From the NCBI GenBank assembly GCA_013204985.1, contig JABMLG010000005.1, positions 62,001-126,000 of the forward strand: a stretch of DNA of 64,000 nucleotides, given 5' to 3'. The notes under the pieces are model-generated. The model saw only the letters and a list, made by a program, of their open reading frames with translations, ran no database searches and was not told the origin of the DNA. The DNA comes from Microbacteriaceae bacterium VKM Ac-2855 (GTDB lineage: Bacteria; Actinomycetota; Actinomycetes; Actinomycetales; Microbacteriaceae). Each line of letters begins with the position of its first letter. Position 1 is the first letter of the stretch. Positions 8,127 to 57,316 of the stretch are shown here, piece after piece. The position numbers and the translations under genes are program-made.

Positions 8127-10364
8127 TCAGCGGTCGAAGGCGCGGAGCCGGAGCGAGTTGGTCACGACGAAGACGCTCGACAGCGCCATGGCGGCGCCCG
8201 CGATCATGGGGTTGAGCAGCCCGAGCGCGGCGAGCGGGATCGCCGCCACGTTGTAGCCGAAGGCCCAGAACAGGTTCGTCGTGATGGTGCGCAGCGTGCG
8301 CCGCGACAAGCGGATGGCCTGCGCCGCCGAGCGCAGATCGCCACGCACGAGCGTGAGATCGGCCGCCTCGATCGCCACATCCGTGCCGGTACCGAGCGCG
8401 ATCCCCAGATCGGCTCGAGCAAGTGCGGCCGCATCGTTGACGCCGTCGCCCACCATCGCGACCACGCGGCCCTCGGCCTGCAGGCGCTCGATCAGCGCCA
8501 GCTTCTCGGCCGGCAGCACCTCGGCGTGCACCTCCTCGATCCCCACCTCCGCGGCGACCCGCGCCGCGACCGCGGCGTTGTCGCCCGTCAGCAGCACCGG
8601 ATGCAGGCCCAGTGCGCGCAACTCGGCGACCGCGGCCGCGCTCGTCGGCTTCACGGCATCCGCCACCACGAGCACACCGCGCACGGCACCGTCCCAACCG
8701 ACCAGCACCGCGGTGCGGCCCGCGTGCTGGGCGGACTCGATCGCGGACGCGAGCCGCGCATCCGGCAGCATCGCCCACTCGGCCAGCAGCGCGGGGCGTC
8801 CGATCACCGCGAGGTGGCCGTCGACGACGCCCTGCACGCCGCTTCCGGCCAGGTTGGCGAAGGCCTCGACGGGCACCAGTGCACCGCGCTCGCGGGCGGC
8901 GCCGGCGATGGCGCGCGCGATCGGATGCTCGGAGGCGTTCTCCAGGGCGCCGGCGACGCGCAGCAGCTCGGCCTCGCTCATGCCGTCAGCGGTGTGCGAC
9001 TCGACCAGGGTCATCGTGCCGGTGGTCACGGTGCCGGTCTTGTCGAGCACGATCGTGTCGACCTGGCGGGTGGACTCGAGCACCTCGGGGCCGTGGATCA
9101 GGATGCCCAATTGCGCACCGCGTCCGGTGCCGACCAGCAGCGCGGTGGGCGTGGCGAGCCCGAGCGCGCAGGGGCAGGCGATGATCAGCACGGCGACGGT
9201 CGCGGTGAATGCGGCTTCGACCGGGAATCCGAGCAGGAGCCAGGCGGCGAGGGTCGCGAGAGCGATCACGATCACTACAGGGACGAAGATCCCGGCGACC
9301 CGATCGGCGAGCCGCTGCACCTCCGCCTTGCCCGATTGGGCGTCCTCGACGAGCCGGGCCATCTTCGCCAGCTGGGTGTCGGTGCCGATGCGCGTCGCCC
9401 GCACCACGAGACGTCCGCCCGCGTTCACGGTCGCGCCGACGACGGCGTCGCCCACGGCGACCTCGACCGGCACCGACTCGCCGGTCAGCATCGACGCATC
9501 GACGGCGGAGGCGCCCTCGGTGATGACGCCGTCCGTCGCGATGGTCTCGCCGGGGCGCACGACGAAGTGGTCACCGACCGCGAGGCTGCTGATGGGGATG
9601 CGCGTCTCGGCGCCACCCCGCAGCACCGCGACGTCCTTTGCGCCGAGTTCGAGCAAAGCCCGCAGCGCGGCTCCCGCCTGCCGCTTCGAGCGCTTCTCGG
9701 CGTAGCGCCCGATCAGCACGAACATCGTCACGCCGGCTGCGACTTCGAGGTACAGGTTCCCGCCGCCGCCCGTGGGCGAGACGGTGAACTCGAAACCGTG
9801 CCGCATGCCCGGCATCCCGGCCGTGCCGAGGAAGAGCGCGTACAGCGACCAGCCTAAGGCCGCCAGGGTGCCGACGGAGACGAGGGTGTCCATCGTCGTC
9901 GCTCCGTGCCGCAGGTTCGTCCAGGCGGCGACGTGGAACGGCCAGGCCGCCCACAGGACGACGGGTGCTGCCAGTGCCAGCGACGCCCACTGCCAGTACG
10001 TGAACTGCAGGGCGGGGATCATCGCCAGCAGGATGACCGGCACCGACAGGGCGATGCTGCCGATCAGGCGCTGGCGGAGGCTGCGCAGCTCGTCACCCGA
10101 TCCGCTCGCCTGCGCGGATGTCGGAGTCGGCTCGGGTGCCGGCGGGGTCGGCACGACGGCCGTGTAGCCGGCCTTCTCGACCTCGGCGATGAGGGTCGTG
10201 GGATCCGTGCCCTGAGGGGCCGAGACCCGCGCCTTCTCGGTGGCGTAGTTCACTGACGCCTCGACGCCGTCGAGCTTGTTCAGCTTGCGCTCGATCCGCA
10301 TCGCGCAGGAGGCACAGGTCATCCCGCCGATCTCGAGCTCGATGCTGTTCGCCACGTCTCTCAT
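8127..10364 (-). CDS. copA: copper-translocating P1B-type ATPase
   Basis: 745 residues. Exports Cu(I) across the cytoplasmic membrane at the cost of ATP. One N-terminal heavy-metal-associated domain with GMTCASC (Cys17, Cys20); eight predicted membrane helices; the intramembrane CPC site in [13 protein letters not shown] (about residue 398); phosphorylation site DKTGT (about 441); SEHPIA and [10 protein letters not shown] in the ATP-binding domain; and the CopA-type [16 protein letters not shown] in the last helix. The ATG has no Shine-Dalgarno of its own and overlaps the stop of an 18-codon upstream ORF (ATGA). A CsoR-like operator lies about 100 bases upstream, but no csoR gene is in the window. 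Confidence 0.94.
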
Positions 10365-10540: not shown

Positions 10541-10570
10541 TACACTCGAACGAGTCGAACTTCTGTTCGA
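10541..10570 (+). promoter_or_regulatory. LexA/SOS box and -10 of the DUF6504-DnaE-like operon
   Basis: TCGAACTTCTGTTCGA (10555-10570) matches the actinobacterial SOS box TCGAAC-N4-GTTCGA exactly. A TACACT -10 candidate lies at 10541-10546, so a bound LexA would cover the transcription start. A further TCGAAC half-site is at 10546-10551. Confidence 0.85.
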
Positions 10571-10605
10571 TGCAGACGCGGTGGTTTCGACGTGAGAGGT
10601 GGATG

Positions 10606-10899
10606 ATGCGAACGATGGATGCGCCGGCACGAGGGCAGGGGATCACGCGTGGAGTGCTGCGCCAGCAGGTCACCGTGTGGACGAATCCCGAGGGGGTGCC
10701 CGAGCGTTTCGTGTACCGGGCCAGACGATTCCGCATCACCCGAGCGCCGCTGCGCTGGCTCTCCCGCGACTCCGCCCGGCCCGAGCAGTCGATGTGGCAG
10801 GTGGTCGCGCAGTCGGCCGAGGGCGAGGTGCTCGTGCTCGACCTGTACGCCGATTCCGAGCAGCCCACTCGGTGGTGGGCCGTCGACGTTCGGAGCTGA
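10606..10899 (+). CDS. DUF6504 family protein
   Basis: 97 residues. I recognise the layout: an [17 protein letters not shown] start, [14 protein letters not shown], and a C-terminal half with [18 protein letters not shown] that looks like a small beta-rich fold. In related actinobacteria this family sits between an ImuB-like Y-family polymerase and DnaE2 in the SOS mutasome cassette. Here it is first in the operon, behind a perfect SOS box, and is followed 2 bases later by the DnaE-like gene. GAGAGG six bases upstream supports the ATG at 10606; in-frame ATGs at 10603 and 10570 are possible. Its biochemical role is unknown. Confidence 0.75.
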
Positions 10900-10901
10900 C
10901 G

Positions 10902-12761
10902 GTGCCGGTGCGACTGCATGCGCCGACCCCGGCGTACACGGGAGTCGGTGAGCTCGACGCCGTGCCGGCGTTGTTGCGTGCAGGCGGTCCGGTACTGCTC
11001 GGTCTCGAGATCGAGGCGGGCACGACGCTGCTCGCTCACGGCGGCGGGCCAGGCGGATGGGCGGCCCTGGTGCGCGGGGTGGGCTCGCGCGGCCGTCGCC
11101 GTGCGGCCGAGACCACGGGCGCCGGTGCTCTTGCGCGGCAGTTGGGCGACACCGCGCGTGAGGTGACGGTGCTGCTGGGTGCGGAGTCGTCGGTGGCGCG
11201 AGCGACGAGCCGCGCATCCGCTCGAGCCGCCGCCGCCGAGTGGCGCGACCTCGATCTCGCCGTGGCGATCGCGGGCGAGCACGCGGTGCGGATGCTCGCA
11301 CTCGCCCGCGATCTCGAGCTGCCGGCCGTGCTCGTCGAGGAGCAACCCGCCGTCGTTCCGGTCGGCGACGACCCGGTCGACGATCACGGGCTCCTGGCCG
11401 AGGAGCAGGCGCTCGACGCGGCCGTGCCGCCGTTCGCGGTGCGGATGTGGGCACGCGCCGCGACCGCACGCGCGGGCATCGCGCTGCCCGAACTGCTCGC
11501 TGCGACCGAGCACCTCGTCGCCCGCTGTCGCATCGACACGATCGCCGACCTGGGCTGGGGAGCCGAGCCTGCGGCCGTCGTCGTCGCCACCGAGGCGTTG
11601 GCGGCCGCCGGCCTCACGTTCTCCGTTGCGGGCTCCGCCGTTGCGGGCTCCGCCGTGTTGGGCTCCGCCGTGGAGGGCTCCGCCGTGCTCGGCCCCTCCG
11701 TGCTCGTCGAGCAGGAGCGGGTGACGGAGGCTCTGACCCTGCTCGCGGCCGAGCATCCCGGCTGCGCGCTACTCCCCGATGGCGGCATCGTGCTCGACGG
11801 ATCCGCGGTGCCGCGCCGCGGACGCCGGCACGGTCATCCGCTCGCCGCCTTCGACCGCCTCGACTGCACGGAACTCGGCCTGGCCACCATCGGGGTGCAC
11901 CCCGACCGCGCCCTCTCGGCGCTCGCGCACGCGCGTGTCGAGGCCGGCGACGGCGCGCTGAGCGCCGACGACCTCGTCGCCACGCACCCGCTCGCCGCGG
12001 CCTGCGGAGCGCTCGAGTTCGGGCTCGAGACGCCCGCCGTGTCGGTCCTGCCCGTCTCGGTCACCGCATCCGCTCGCCGCTACCGTATCGAGGGCGACGC
12101 GATTCGACCGCCGCTGCGGCTCGCCGGCCTGACCGATGCCGAGATCGAGCGGATCCTCGGCACCCGCCCGTTCCGCTCCCTCGACGACTTCGCCGCACGA
12201 GCCGCGCCGGCGCGGGCCCGCATGCTGCGGCTGGCCGCGGAGGGGGCTCTCGACCCGCTTCTGCCCGGCGTCGAGCGGGCAGCGGTGCTCGCCCGCGTGC
12301 GCGCGCTCGGCTCCGAGCCCGCTCCGGGCGACGATGCCGCTCCCGCGCTCTTCGCGGGCCTCGATATCCCGCTGCCGCCGCCACCCCCGCCGCCGCACGC
12401 GATCGAAAGCTACCGCCCGATGCTCGACGAACTCGAAGTGCTCTCGGCCGGCAGCCTCGTCGACGCGCGCCCTGGCGCGGAGGTACTGGTGGCGGGTCTG
12501 CGCATCGCCGGTGATCGCGCGCCCCGCGGGTCCACCGGGCTGTCCGTGCGGCTGGAGGACGGCAGCGGCGTCGCCGACTGCGCCTTCCCGGCGGATGCGC
12601 AGCGCGCGGTCGGCGCGCTGCTCTCGAGCACCCGTCTGATGCTGGTGCAGGGTCGCACCCGCGAGGGCGACGACGACCACGTGCGCATCGAGGCCGAGAA
12701 CGCCTGGGACCTCAAGCGGATGTGGGCCGACTGGTCGGCGCAACGCCGCCGCTCAGCCTGA
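10902..12761 (+). CDS. reduced DnaE2-like protein lacking the polymerase core
   Basis: 619 residues against about 1050-1150 for DnaE2. The C-terminal half follows the DnaE layout: [16 protein letters not shown] resembles the DnaE2 KDDCAAxGLxKFDxLGLG region, [20 protein letters not shown] with SLDDFAARA is the helix-hairpin-helix part, and [13 protein letters not shown] followed by [16 protein letters not shown] is the OB fold. The N-terminal third is only faintly PHP-like. I cannot find the PDxDxDF catalytic aspartates, so it should not polymerise DNA. The frame is uninterrupted. GTG start 2 bases after the DUF6504 stop; SOS-controlled. It may be a non-catalytic partner or a decaying gene. 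A five-copy GSAV repeat lies at residues 242-266. Confidence 0.6.
11625..11699 (+). repeat. in-frame 15-bp tandem repeat inside the DnaE-like gene
   Basis: Five consecutive 15-bp units built on GTTGCGGGCTCCGCC, encoding repeats of the type (V/L)xGSAV. The last unit is degenerate. Codon-length repetition keeps the frame; likely slippage-generated and polymorphic. Confidence 0.85.
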
Positions 12762-12928: not shown

Positions 12929-15496
12929 CTACTCCGCGCGCACCTCGTCCGGCGACTTGTCGGGGCGCCAGCCGCGCCAAACCGCGTGTCGGAGGGTGCC
13001 GGATGCGGTGCGTTCGGCGAAGCGCACCTCGCCGACGAGACGCGGCTCGATCCAGTGCATCCCGCGCGACTCCGGCCCCGGCACCTCGGCAGCGGCCTCG
13101 GGCGCCGCCATCGCCGCGAAGCGCGTCATCAGCGCCGCCCGCTCCTTGTCACTCAGCCCCGAGCCGACGCGACCGACGTAGCGCAGCACACCCTCCGCAT
13201 CCGGTAAGGCCATCGCCAACGAGCCCACGGATCCGGTCAACGAGCCGGTGCCCGGACGCCAGCCGATGATCACCACCTCCTGCGCTCGCTGGTGCTTGAT
13301 CTTGATCCATGCCCGGCTGCGCCGCCCGACGGCGTAGCTGCTGCCGGGCTGCTTCGCGACGACGCCCTCGAGCCCGAGCCGTGCGCTCGTCGCCATCGCC
13401 TCCGCCACATCGCCCTCGAATGCTGCGGGCAGGTGGATCCGCTCGTTCTCGAGCACGGCCTCGGTCAGACGTTCACGACGCTCGTGATACGGCAGGTCCA
13501 CGAGCGAGACGCCGTCGAGTTCGAGCACGTCGAAGAGCATCACGAACACGGGGGTGCCGAGCGCGCGCTGCACGTCGCGCGGGTCGCTGAGCTGCGCGCG
13601 GCCCTGCAGGGTGCCGAAATCGGGCCGGCCCCGTGCATCCAGTGCCACGATCTCGCCGTCGAAGACTCCGTTGCGCCCCTGCACCGCAGCGCGCATCGCG
13701 TCGAGGAGGTCGGGGAACGTCGAGGTCTGGTCGTTGCCGTTTCGGCTGGTGAGACCGACGTGATCCGCGGTCACGGAGGCGAGGGTGCGGTAGCCGTCCC
13801 ACTTCATCTCGATCGCCCAGTCGTCATCGACATCGGCGGCGCTGCCGGCCGTTGCGAGCATCGGCCGCAACGACGCGGGGTTCAGCGGTGTCGCCGCGGA
13901 GCTCTTCGCAGTCGATGCGGGTGCGGGTGTCGTCGCCCCCGGCTCACGGCCGTGCGCGCGGGCGCGTTCGGCGGCGCCTTCCTCCTCCTGCGCGGCCCCC
14001 GACTTCCAGCGCGGATGACCTTTTTTCGGTGCATCCGGATCCATCAGGTGCAGCAACCAGTTGTTCTCGCCCCCGCTCTCGCCGCGGCGCCCGCCGGTGT
14101 GCAGCAGCGCGTACTTGCGGGGCTCGCCCCCGAGCCCGCCGTCGGGGCGGCCGGTGAGCACCGCGATGATCTCCGAACCCTCGCGCCATTTCTCGAGCTC
14201 GTACTCGCCCGCATCCCAGATGCTGACCTCGCCGCCGCCGTACTCGCCTTTCGGGATCGTGCCCTCGAACGTGCCGTACTCGAGCGGATGATCCTCCGTC
14301 TGCACCGCGAGATGGTTGCCGTCCCCGGGAAGCGGCGGCCCTTTCGGCACCGCCCAGCTGACGAGGACCCCGTCGTGCTCGAGTCGGAAGTCGTAGTGCA
14401 GCCGGCGCGCGTGGTGCTCCTGGATCACGAAAGACGTGCCGTCGCTGCTCGGAGCCGCTTGGTCCGGCACCGGTTCGGGGGTCTTCGTTCCGTCGCGCAT
14501 GCTGCGGTACGTCGCCAGCCGGTCGGCGGATGCGGCGGTCGGCTCGAAACGGTCGAGGTGCTCCGGCGTGGGTTCGAGGCTTGCGTCGCGCACCGCGAGC
14601 AGCGGCGCGAGCAGGTCGCCCCGGCGGGCGATCCGCTCGGCCATCTCGTCGAACCGGAGGTGGCGGAGTTTCGGCGAGGCGATCTCCTTCCACGTGCGCG
14701 GCGCGGCGACCGTCGGTTCGAACCTCCCGCGCAACGAGTAGGGCGCGATCGTGGTCTTGTTGCCGTTGTTCTGGCTCCAGTCGATCAGCACCTTGCCGCC
14801 GCGGAGCGCCTTCTTCATGTCCGAGACGATGAGATCGGGGTGATCGGCCTCCAGCGCACGGGCGAGTTCGTGGGCGACGGCCGAGACCTGGTCGAAGCCG
14901 AGCGTGCCGTCGAGGGGCGCGTACAGGTGGATACCCTTGCTGCCGCTCGTCACGGGCACCGTGGCCAGCCCCATCCCGTCGAGGATTTCCTTCGCGTAGC
15001 CGGCCACCTCGGCGCAGTCGCGGAGTCCAGCGCCCTCGCCGGGGTCGAGGTCGAGCACGAGCCGGTCGGGGTTGCGGCGATCGCCGGCCCTGCCGAATCG
15101 CCACTGCGGCACGTGGATCTCGAGCGCTGCGGACTGCGCGAGCCACGTCAGGGTCGCCAGGTCGTTGACCAGCGGATACTGCACGGTGCGACTCGAGTGC
15201 TCGATCCCGCGCCGCTGCACCCACTCAGGAGTGCCGTTCGGCAGGTTCTTCTCGAAGAACACCTCACCCGGATGCTCGGCGTCACCGACCCCGTCGACCC
15301 AGCGCTTGCGTGTCGCGGGGCGGTTGGTCGTGTGCGGAACCATCACCTCGGCTACGGCGGCGTAGTACGCGAGGACCTCGCCCTTGGTGGTGCCCTCGGG
15401 GTTCGCCTCGGAGGGCGGGTAGGCGAACTTGTCGAGGTTGGTCAGGCGCAGCCGGTGGCCGTCGACGGTGACGAGCTGTCCGGATGCGGTGGCCAT
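12929..15496 (-). CDS. ligD: multidomain ATP-dependent DNA ligase D (NHEJ)
   Basis: 855 residues in the order polymerase, 3'-phosphoesterase, ligase, as in mycobacterial LigD. The polymerase domain (about 8-300) has the catalytic DLD at 149-151 in LVLDLDPGE, and SGSKGIHLYAPL. The phosphoesterase (about 350-490) shows HHARRLHYDFRLEHDG and TFEGTIPKGEYGGG. The ligase (from about 560) has the nucleotidyl Lys in EMKWDGYR, DGEIVALD and WIKIKH. It joins double-strand breaks together with Ku; no ku gene is in this window. ATG start with AGGA about 7 bases upstream. The upstream gap is filled by a three-copy tandem array. Confidence 0.95.
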   Translation of the reverse strand: MATASGQLVTVDGHRLRLTNLDKFAYPPSEANPEGTTKGEVLAYYAAVAEVMVPHTTNRPATRKRWVDGVGDAEHPGEVFFEKNLPNGTPEWVQRRGIEHSSRTVQYPLVNDLATLTWLAQSAALEIHVPQWRFGRAGDRRNPDRLVLDLDPGEGAGLRDCAEVAGYAKEILDGMGLATVPVTSGSKGIHLYAPLDGTLGFDQVSAVAHELARALEADHPDLIVSDMKKALRGGKVLIDWSQNNGNKTTIAPYSLRGRFEPTVAAPRTWKEIASPKLRHLRFDEMAERIARRGDLLAPLLAVRDASLEPTPEHLDRFEPTAASADRLATYRSMRDGTKTPEPVPDQAAPSSDGTSFVIQEHHARRLHYDFRLEHDGVLVSWAVPKGPPLPGDGNHLAVQTEDHPLEYGTFEGTIPKGEYGGGEVSIWDAGEYELEKWREGSEIIAVLTGRPDGGLGGEPRKYALLHTGGRRGESGGENNWLLHLMDPDAPKKGHPRWKSGAAQEEEGAAERARAHGREPGATTPAPASTAKSSAATPLNPASLRPMLATAGSAADVDDDWAIEMKWDGYRTLASVTADHVGLTSRNGNDQTSTFPDLLDAMRAAVQGRNGVFDGEIVALDARGRPDFGTLQGRAQLSDPRDVQRALGTPVFVMLFDVLELDGVSLVDLPYHERRERLTEAVLENERIHLPAAFEGDVAEAMATSARLGLEGVVAKQPGSSYAVGRRSRAWIKIKHQRAQEVVIIGWRPGTGSLTGSVGSLAMALPDAEGVLRYVGRVGSGLSDKERAALMTRFAAMAAPEAAAEVPGPESRGMHWIEPRLVGEVRFAERTASGTLRHAVWRGWRPDKSPDEVRAE

Positions 15497-55868: not shown

Positions 55869-55983
55869 TGGCGCAGACGGCGCTGCTGCACAAAGACCTT
55901 CCGAGATTAGTCGGATGAATCGGACGACATCCGGCGGATCGCGCCGCCGGTCGGTCCACCCGCGCGAGCGTGACGTCATTGCG

Positions 55984-56026
55984 TATGATCAAACGATTGC
56001 GCACGCACCGCTCAGCGGGATACCGT
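55984..56026 (+). promoter_or_regulatory. LacI-type operator O1 and promoter of the CoA-transferase operon
   Basis: Left half TATGATCAAAC, right half GATTGCGCACG (55984-56005), centred on CG. The -35 TTGCGC (55997-56002) lies inside the right half; 18-bp spacer; -10 TACCGT (56021-56026). Eighteen of 22 bases match operator O2 at 60891. Confidence 0.7.
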
Positions 56027-56083
56027 GGGCCGACGCAACGACCGCGGCCGACACCGCGCGGTCACGGATCCGAAGGACGACTC

Positions 56084-57316
56084 ATGCCCGGACAGCCCAC
56101 CACCCCACCCGAGCCGCGCACGCCCGCCCGGGGCGCCCGGCCGCTCGACGGCATCCTCGTCCTCGATTTCTCACAGTTCCTCGCCGGCCCGGTGGCCGCG
56201 ATGCGCCTCGCCGATCTGGGCGCGCGCGTGATCAAGATCGAGCGGCCGCAGGGCGGCGACATCGGTCGGGGGCTCGCCTTCGCCGGCCGGACGGCCGACG
56301 GGGACACCGTCTCGTTCCACGCGATGAATCGCAACAAGCAGGGCATGACGGCCGATCTGAAGAACGCGGACGATCTCGCCGCGGTGCGCGATCTCGTCGC
56401 GCGAGCCGACGTCATCATCCAGAACTTCCGACCGGGGGTGATGGAACGGATCGGGCTCGACTACGAGTCGGTGCGGAAGATCAACCCCGCCATCGTCTAC
56501 GGCAGCGCCAGCGGATACGGCGACACCGGCCCGTGGGCGTCGCGCCCGGGTCAAGACCTGCTCGCGCAGTCGGTCTCGGGGCTGCCCTGGCTCAACGGCT
56601 CGGCCGAGGACGGACCGGTGCCGGTCGGGCTCTCCATCGCGGACCACCTGACCAGCTGCCACCTCGCCCAAGGAGTGACGGCACTGCTCGTGCGCCGGTT
56701 CCGCACCGGCGAGGGCGGCCTCGCCGAGACCAGCCTGCTCGAGGCGATGCTCGACCTGCAGTTCGAACTGCTCTCGACGCACCTCAACGACGACACCGTC
56801 ACCGTCCGCCGCGGCGGCGCCCATTCCGCGCACGCGTTCCTGCCCGCACCGTACGGCACGTACCCCACCAGCGACGGCTACCTCGCCCTGGCGATGAACC
56901 CGGTCCCGAAGCTCGGTGAGCTCCTCGGTGTCGCCGAACTGGTGGCGATGACCGATCCGCAGCAGTGGTGGGACCAGCAGGAGGAGATCGAGGCGCTGCT
57001 CGCGGCCCACTTCGCCACGGCGACGACGGATGCGTGGCTCGAGGTGCTCGACGCGGCGGACGTGTGGTGCGCGCCGGTGCTCACATTGGAGCAGCTCGTC
57101 GCGCACGACGGCTTCCGCGCCCTCGACATGACCCAGAGCCTGGTGCGGCCCGCCGAGGTGACCGATGACGGCACCGAGCTGACCCTGCGCACCACACGCA
57201 GCCCGATCCGCATCGACGGCGCGGTGCTCTCGAGCCCGGTCCCCGCGCCGAAACTCGGGCAGCACGACGCTCTGATCCGCGCCGAGTTCCTCTCCGACAC
57301 GTCGGTGCCCGCGTGA
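56084..57316 (+). CDS. CaiB/BaiF (class III) CoA-transferase family protein
   Basis: 410 residues. Family hallmarks: ILVLDFSQFLAGPVAAMRLA, GARVIKIERPQGGD, NRNKQGMTADLKN, NFRPGVMERIGLDY, SASGYGDTGPWASRPGQDLL. In other members the acyl-accepting Asp lies in a GQxVDVSL motif; here the aligned segment is GGLAETSLLEAML with Glu215 in place of Asp. AAGGA precedes the ATG at 56084. First gene of an operon with a solute-binding-like protein (GTGA overlap), a MaoC-like protein and a LacI regulator. It probably moves CoA to a hydroxy or oxo acid from sugar breakdown; the substrate is unknown. Confidence 0.88.
   Translation: MPGQPTTPPEPRTPARGARPLDGILVLDFSQFLAGPVAAMRLADLGARVIKIERPQGGDIGRGLAFAGRTADGDTVSFHAMNRNKQGMTADLKNADDLAAVRDLVARADVIIQNFRPGVMERIGLDYESVRKINPAIVYGSASGYGDTGPWASRPGQDLLAQSVSGLPWLNGSAEDGPVPVGLSIADHLTSCHLAQGVTALLVRRFRTGEGGLAETSLLEAMLDLQFELLSTHLNDDTVTVRRGGAHSAHAFLPAPYGTYPTSDGYLALAMNPVPKLGELLGVAELVAMTDPQQWWDQQEEIEALLAAHFATATTDAWLEVLDAADVWCAPVLTLEQLVAHDGFRALDMTQSLVRPAEVTDDGTELTLRTTRSPIRIDGAVLSSPVPAPKLGQHDALIRAEFLSDTSVPA

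Follow-up and report, generated by a model that had tools for sequence, protein, structure and literature searches.

DnaE2B, a DnaE2 lineage that is not linked to imuB, is described in a 2026 survey (PMC12926913), in the part of its text available here, as occurring in Actinobacteria without imuA/imuB and, in some groups, beside a small standalone ImuB-C protein, the two forming DnaE2-[ImuB-C] modules with an upstream SOS box. In the modelled canonical mutasome of the same partial source, DnaE2 contacts ImuB mainly through its PHP domain, which lies on ImuB-C, and through its helix-hairpin-helix (HhH) region, which lies on the ImuB thumb. Polymerase homologues without catalytic residues or domains are also known from the available part of that survey, namely ImuB itself, a Y-family polymerase that is dead and has been kept because of the contacts it makes, and actinobacterial PolX-like proteins that lack a polymerase domain. 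As far as that text goes, the survey queried with the polymerase domain alone and dropped hits in which no reliable one was present, so that polymerase-less forms would have been missed by design. In the literature searched, DnaE2B was found in this survey alone, no paper mentioning DUF6504 was found, and a partial search yielded no non-catalytic DnaE2 in a mutasome; the portion seen of an account of domain architecture (PMC3919608) contains no DnaE without a polymerase core.

Here we analyse a locus in a 64 kb window of the genome of Microbacteriaceae bacterium VKM Ac-2855, the window being the whole stretch of DNA that was analysed. To judge from its sequence, the window holds an ancestral unit of SOS box, DUF6504 gene and DnaE2B gene minus the polymerase core. 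Like the described DnaE2-[ImuB-C] modules, it combines a DnaE2 lineage without linkage to imuB, a small partner and an upstream SOS box, but its DnaE-like protein is a shell without the core, it resides in a genome with imuB, and its partner family DUF6504 did not emerge as ImuB-C in a profile comparison (probability 0.3%; comparison with PMC12926913, seen in part). With the canonical ImuA'-ImuB-DnaE2 mutasome, a cassette that the source genome also holds, it shares a damage box and C-family ancestry, whereas the shell belongs to another lineage, lies away from imuB and lacks the catalytic core. It resembles ImuB in being a polymerase homologue without catalytic residues that is apparently retained in the SOS response; unlike ImuB, as the seen part of PMC12926913 presents it, the shell is C-family rather than Y-family, has had its core deleted rather than inactivated by point changes, and has a putative role. 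The PolX-like proteins in the same text are likewise polymerase relatives minus the polymerase domain, but they are X-family proteins with a conserved PHP domain, whereas that of the shell is eroded.

The elements of the locus are as follows.

10555..10570, unstranded (.): perfect actinobacterial-type SOS box TCGAAC-TTCT-GTTCGA, TCGAACTTCTGTTCGA (motif search, base-composition expectation, shuffles)
10603..10899, + strand: DUF6504-like small protein, 98 aa from the ATG at 10603 or 97 from 10606 (Pfam scan, phmmer, G383 homologue)
10902..12761, + strand: DnaE2-like protein of 619 aa, shrunken and polymerase-less, which may instead start at 10908 (ORF, Pfam and NCBIfam scans, profile alignment)
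10944..11350, + strand: remnant of the PHP domain, about aa 15-150, that lacks the first strand and the HxH metal motif (profile alignment, colinear from aa 15 onwards)
11478..11565, + strand: conserved segment ahead of the palm, about aa 193-221 (alignments)
11625..11700, + strand: linker insertion of GSAV-type repeats from a short tandem repeat, absent in G383 (sequence; 22-residue alignment gap in G383)
11751..11942, + strand: palm remnant around the third catalytic Asp, about aa 284-347 (alignment columns)
12039..12278, + strand: HhH region, Pfam HHH_6, aa 380-459 (Pfam, E 1.1e-9)
12396..12719, + strand: OB-fold region, about aa 499-606, better conserved than any other part (NCBIfam, family search, dN/dS)

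The SOS box, the DUF6504-like gene and the DnaE-like gene follow one another on the plus strand, the last starting 2 bases past the DUF6504-like stop. They are flanked on the minus strand by a divergent gene that shows motifs of P-type copper ATPases (8127-10364), which we take to be copA, and by a presumably LigD-type gene (12929-15496), both names being our reading of the sequence. An earlier note on this DNA had placed a perfect SOS box ahead of the pair and no imuA' or imuB beside it, and both statements hold. The box is the sole perfect TCGAAC-N4-GTTCGA in the 64 kb, against 0.0014 expected from base composition, and the window has two sites with at most one mismatch, a number reached in 0 of 100 shuffles. 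The other SOS-like site (56751-56766, 1 mismatch) lies inside an ORF (55970-57316) and is probably there by chance. Elsewhere in the source genome, a full-length DnaE2 (C1:240k) adjoins imuB and a gene there that we read as imuA', and DnaE1 is at C1:697k.

The earlier note was also right that the DnaE-like frame is intact and without polymerase residues: there is no internal stop over 619 codons, the PDxDxD aspartate columns are deleted and the third catalytic aspartate (KxD) is G, or A in the congener G383, with whose start the second GTG at 10908 aligns. Full-length relatives retain all catalytic aspartates (21 aligned rows ungapped at those columns). Retention of the HhH and OB-fold C-terminus, claimed in the same place, is upheld by a Pfam scan that returned HHH_6 only (E 1.1e-9), with PF07733 and the finger domain absent, and by an NCBIfam match to error-prone DNA polymerase confined to profile positions 788-1035 of 1047. 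The proposed comparison with DnaE2 by HMM was favourable in that aa 15-619 are colinear with 12 full-length relatives from the same family (E 5.9e-42, 37% identity), but the C-terminus is not the sole remnant, since parts of the PHP domain and palm are kept as well. Thus common ancestry with C-family polymerases extends along the protein, without the three palm aspartates. Missing altogether are the PHP HxH motif (its columns read P/R), the palm core with PDxDxD, the thumb and the fingers. The protein has a single lysine in 619 residues and 20% Ala. Among solved structures, phmmer with the window protein found no relative at E up to 1, and the window-pair profile matched only a ribosomal bL12 chain (E 0.0018), taken as a composition match.

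The C-terminus of the window protein is nearer to a separate full-length lineage than to the imuB-linked DnaE2 of its own genome. In a C-terminal tree the imuB-linked DnaE2 proteins of the source genome and of G640, from two genera, stand apart from every B or shrunken form, at a support of 100. Derivation from the genome's own imuA'-imuB-dnaE2 gene is ruled out by this split and by the presence of that dnaE2, intact, elsewhere. Sequence relationships thus place the window protein in a second, DUF6504-linked DnaE2 lineage. This lineage is probably the DnaE2B of PMC12926913 as the seen part of that survey describes it, the survey's own sequences standing outside our tree. It was detected in 108 of 398 genomes with the window protein (E <= 1e-10) and in 115 of 398 with the pair profile (E <= 1e-8), counts that take in both shrunken genes and some more distant DnaE proteins; up to three candidate places were scored per genome in the family and order searches, and place counts are lower bounds. 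When a contig collection was scanned with the window protein, a single distant locus came up, and close records may be absent from that collection.

Thirteen DnaE2B-like loci of the family were fetched (L036-L048). A DUF6504 gene is present at 12 of them, immediately upstream at five and some 4-5 kb upstream at seven. The DUF6504 profile applied to them was seeded with the window pair, so the pair's own E-values are not independent. A box with at most one mismatch lies within ~110 bp of one or other gene in 11 of the 13. In a phylum sample, DUF6504 was found in 58 of 149 genomes, and a DnaE-family gene lay within ~1.5 kb in 24 of the 30 DUF6504 loci listed; an ImuB query matched none of these 30. 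DUF6504 therefore goes with a DnaE and is not the companion of ImuB that the earlier note had assumed. The 12 of 13 loci, the 11 of 13 boxes and the 24 of 30 listed phylum loci together argue that the ancestral unit consisted of an SOS box, DUF6504 and DnaE2B. An equation of DUF6504 with ImuB-C was unsupported, column-shuffled controls scoring higher in the profile comparison.

Assignment of the window's small gene to DUF6504 is supported through its relatives. Alone, its product scores 17.1 bits against Pfam DUF6504 (PF20114; E 0.0067), under the 24.2-bit cut-off, while relatives beside full-length DnaE score 32.8, 30.7, 27.7 and 18.4 bits, and a loop that bears a WW motif in relatives is shortened. 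With this protein alone as query, phmmer matched, in each of two other genomes, the small gene that immediately precedes a full-length DnaE (E ~1e-4), and the one of these that was scanned passes the Pfam cut-off (30.7 bits). The source genome has a second DUF6504 gene (G000:C26:86482; L061:6348-6758), which likewise has a perfect SOS box (L061:6406); none of the genes called nearby is a DnaE.

Several other states of DnaE2B-like genes were observed. In G019 the gene (L056:4194-8221) is split by an IS-like transposase pair, has an altered catalytic motif and lies upstream of a LexA-like gene; G238 and G140 carry extra C-terminal fragments (L057, L058) in addition to full-length copies elsewhere in the same genomes; and the copy in G329 has a broken 3' part. 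Genomes of 1.2-1.8 Mb in genera g11, g13 and g14 retain a full-length DnaE2B-like polymerase (L042, L043 and other loci), and canonical ImuB was not found in the five genomes of this type that were checked. Further short open frames occur in fragmented assemblies (e.g. G061, G146, G169, G176, G251, G289, G562 and G584), and a short frame in G706 ends at a contig edge.

We propose that the shell has been retained as a non-catalytic accessory or competitor of the canonical mutasome in the SOS response, a tentative reading to which we give a probability of roughly 0.45. The main rival is slow decay, in which a redundant DnaE2B without its polymerase part is drifting away and the open frame and box are leftovers; we regard this as unlikely. 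The evidence within the genus bears on both. Conservation in related genomes, a check proposed in the earlier note, was found in part, the pair being kept together with its box and flanking genes in G383 but present in only two of 15 congeners (the source genome and G383). Both carriers have a frame of 615-619 aa, the box (with 1 mismatch at the same position in G383) and the partner gene at 32% DNA divergence, in a common gene order of copA, box-DUF6504-shell and ligD, the gene names again being our reading of the sequence. Protein identity between them is 61% for the DnaE-like protein, 78% for its OB part (aa 480-619) and 81% for the DUF6504-like protein. By the Nei-Gojobori method (window against G383; dS 0.55-0.82 for whole genes), dN/dS of the DnaE-like gene is 0.41 overall and, by segment, 0.31 for aa 1-120, 0.80 for the linker (120-240), 0.44 for 240-380, 0.33 for the HhH part (380-480) and 0.22 for the OB part (480-619). 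The comparison genes, two of the four having been picked as neighbours of known function, gave 0.20 (DUF6504), 0.13 (ligD), 0.15 (copA) and 0.31 (glycosyltransferase). In a neutral simulation no stop arose in 2.8% of trials at 17% divergence and in 0.1% at 33%. The plain reading of these alignments would be that the C-terminal part and the partner are under purifying selection, with selection partly relaxed elsewhere.

The patchy presence, the raised dN/dS of the whole gene and its linker, the drifted composition and the frank decay of DnaE2B elsewhere (G019, G238, G140 and G329) all suit a decaying gene. This explanation accounts less well for the frame, box and partner gene kept by two genomes so far apart, for dN/dS values of 0.20-0.22 in DUF6504 and the OB part, and for the separate, long-lived polymerase-less forms described below. 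As to a full-length DnaE2 at this locus in close relatives beside a copy under relaxed selection, which the earlier note had set against its own proposal, one congener (G263, L060:6258-9866) has a full-length divergent DnaE with its own DUF6504 and a perfect SOS box, and selection on the window copy is partly relaxed, but the G263 gene is at another locus, among small uncharacterised genes, and on another branch of the tree. Six of the 13 other congeners were fetched around ligD and had no shell, copA or box with at most one mismatch within 13-18 kb, so that the site itself does not lend itself to direct comparison.

When 396 genomes of the order were searched, short frames turned up in g207, a genus from another family. 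Among the 57 g207 genomes searched there are five polymerase-less forms of 496-524 aa (G640, G729, G781, G855 and G940) and four full-length forms (G751, G879, G925 and G933). The five shrunken forms are without PHP and PDxDxD and retain the HhH region, the OB part and a segment that follows the third Asp; an SOS-like box stands at the start of each (1 mismatch in four, 2 in one). With the G640 form as reference, the first four of these forms show 34-57% identity, and the closest pair has a dN/dS of 0.35. No DUF6504 gene was found at the four g207 shrunken loci searched (7-15 kb). Only the HhH and OB regions, plus differing palm scraps, are common to this lineage and the window type. Against solved structures the g207-lineage profile matched DnaE in the finger-end/HhH region, in T. 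aquaticus at residues 821-948 (E 1.8e-14). The C-terminal tree groups both shrunken sets (bootstrap 82, SH-like 0.989) on long branches, and separate placements of the two are not rejected (AU p 0.147 and 0.298).

Canonical ImuB was present in all seven carriers of polymerase-less forms. Full-length-type ImuB matches (E <= 4e-222) occur in 15 of 15 congeners, including both carriers, G000 and G383, in which this lineage departs from the survey's description of DnaE2B genomes as lacking imuA/imuB. ImuB-type matches were obtained in all 14 g207 genomes tested and span most of the protein in 13; that of G781 is partial, covering aa 360-521 only at a contig end. No ImuB-type match was found in two outside controls (G840, G613). 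Among 22 other family genomes sampled from full-length-lineage carriers, two of which (G019, G329) have only broken copies, ImuB was found in four, all of genus g77 (E ~1e-153 to 1e-157), and the remaining 18 gave no ImuB match or weak Y-family matches (E >= 6e-14) missing the C-terminus, in agreement with the survey's description of DnaE2B genomes. Full-length forms also coexist with ImuB (G263, four g77 and four g207 genomes), which indicates that the presence of ImuB permits the loss of the core and does not cause it.

On the accessory or competitor reading, the ancestor would have been an error-prone polymerase of the DnaE2B type that LexA controlled together with its small DUF6504 subunit. 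In genomes that already owned a complete ImuA'-ImuB-DnaE2 mutasome it would have lost its polymerase core, and the non-catalytic shell would have been kept as an SOS-induced protein. LexA would repress the pair; once damage has occurred, the shell may form a complex with the DUF6504 protein and may then join or compete within the canonical mutasome through the DnaE2 surfaces modelled to face ImuB (PHP and HhH; PMC12926913, seen in part), thereby adjusting or limiting translesion synthesis. It is the retention of the eroded PHP and HhH regions, together with a likely small partner, that leads us to propose this role. Several observations point the other way: restriction to two of 15 congeners; a dN/dS above that of all four compared genes; the drifted composition; loss of the PHP metal motif, the clamp-like motif and the DUF6504 WW loop; a g207 lineage with neither a PHP remnant nor a nearby DUF6504; and the profile comparison that gave no support for DUF6504 as ImuB-C. 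With the PHP part missing in g207, contact with ImuB-C cannot be the common function.

A narrower possibility, which we consider improbable, is that the shell is a dominant inhibitor only, occupying ImuB or the small subunit and stopping translesion synthesis late in the SOS response. Such an inhibitor would fit the retention of remnants of just those regions, PHP and HhH, through which DnaE2 contacts ImuB in the model (PMC12926913, in its available part), and the presence of ImuB in the genomes of all seven polymerase-less forms, once as a partial match, but the PHP remnant is missing in the g207 lineage and the ImuB contacts are those of a model.

The earlier note had suggested a non-catalytic clamp- or DNA-binding factor in the damage response, of which the non-catalytic damage role remains the likeliest reading and the binding activities fare worse. 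A clamp-like motif that contains Q in most full-length relatives (QLDF, QLPLF) reads PALF/PTLF here and the net charge is -20, so a simple clamp- or DNA-binding factor is disfavoured. A new DNA-damage protein unrelated to the mutasome, whose HhH and OB folds bind DNA ends or single strands, has in its favour an HhH region of net charge +4 that is conserved together with the OB part, but it too seems improbable given that all seven polymerase-less forms are acidic as whole proteins (-6 to -46 in the other six).

Returning to the shell as an accessory or competitor of the mutasome, a core-less protein that looks maintained here and has a counterpart in a second bacterial family may act on mutation-making repair without being an enzyme, either as a helper or as a brake. 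The DnaE2 surfaces needed for mutasome assembly have so far been modelled, not measured (PMC12926913, as far as its text was available), and a natural DnaE2 shell that keeps contact regions and has dropped catalysis offers a ready-made test of them. If our reading is true, cells would tune SOS mutagenesis with dead C-family polymerases.
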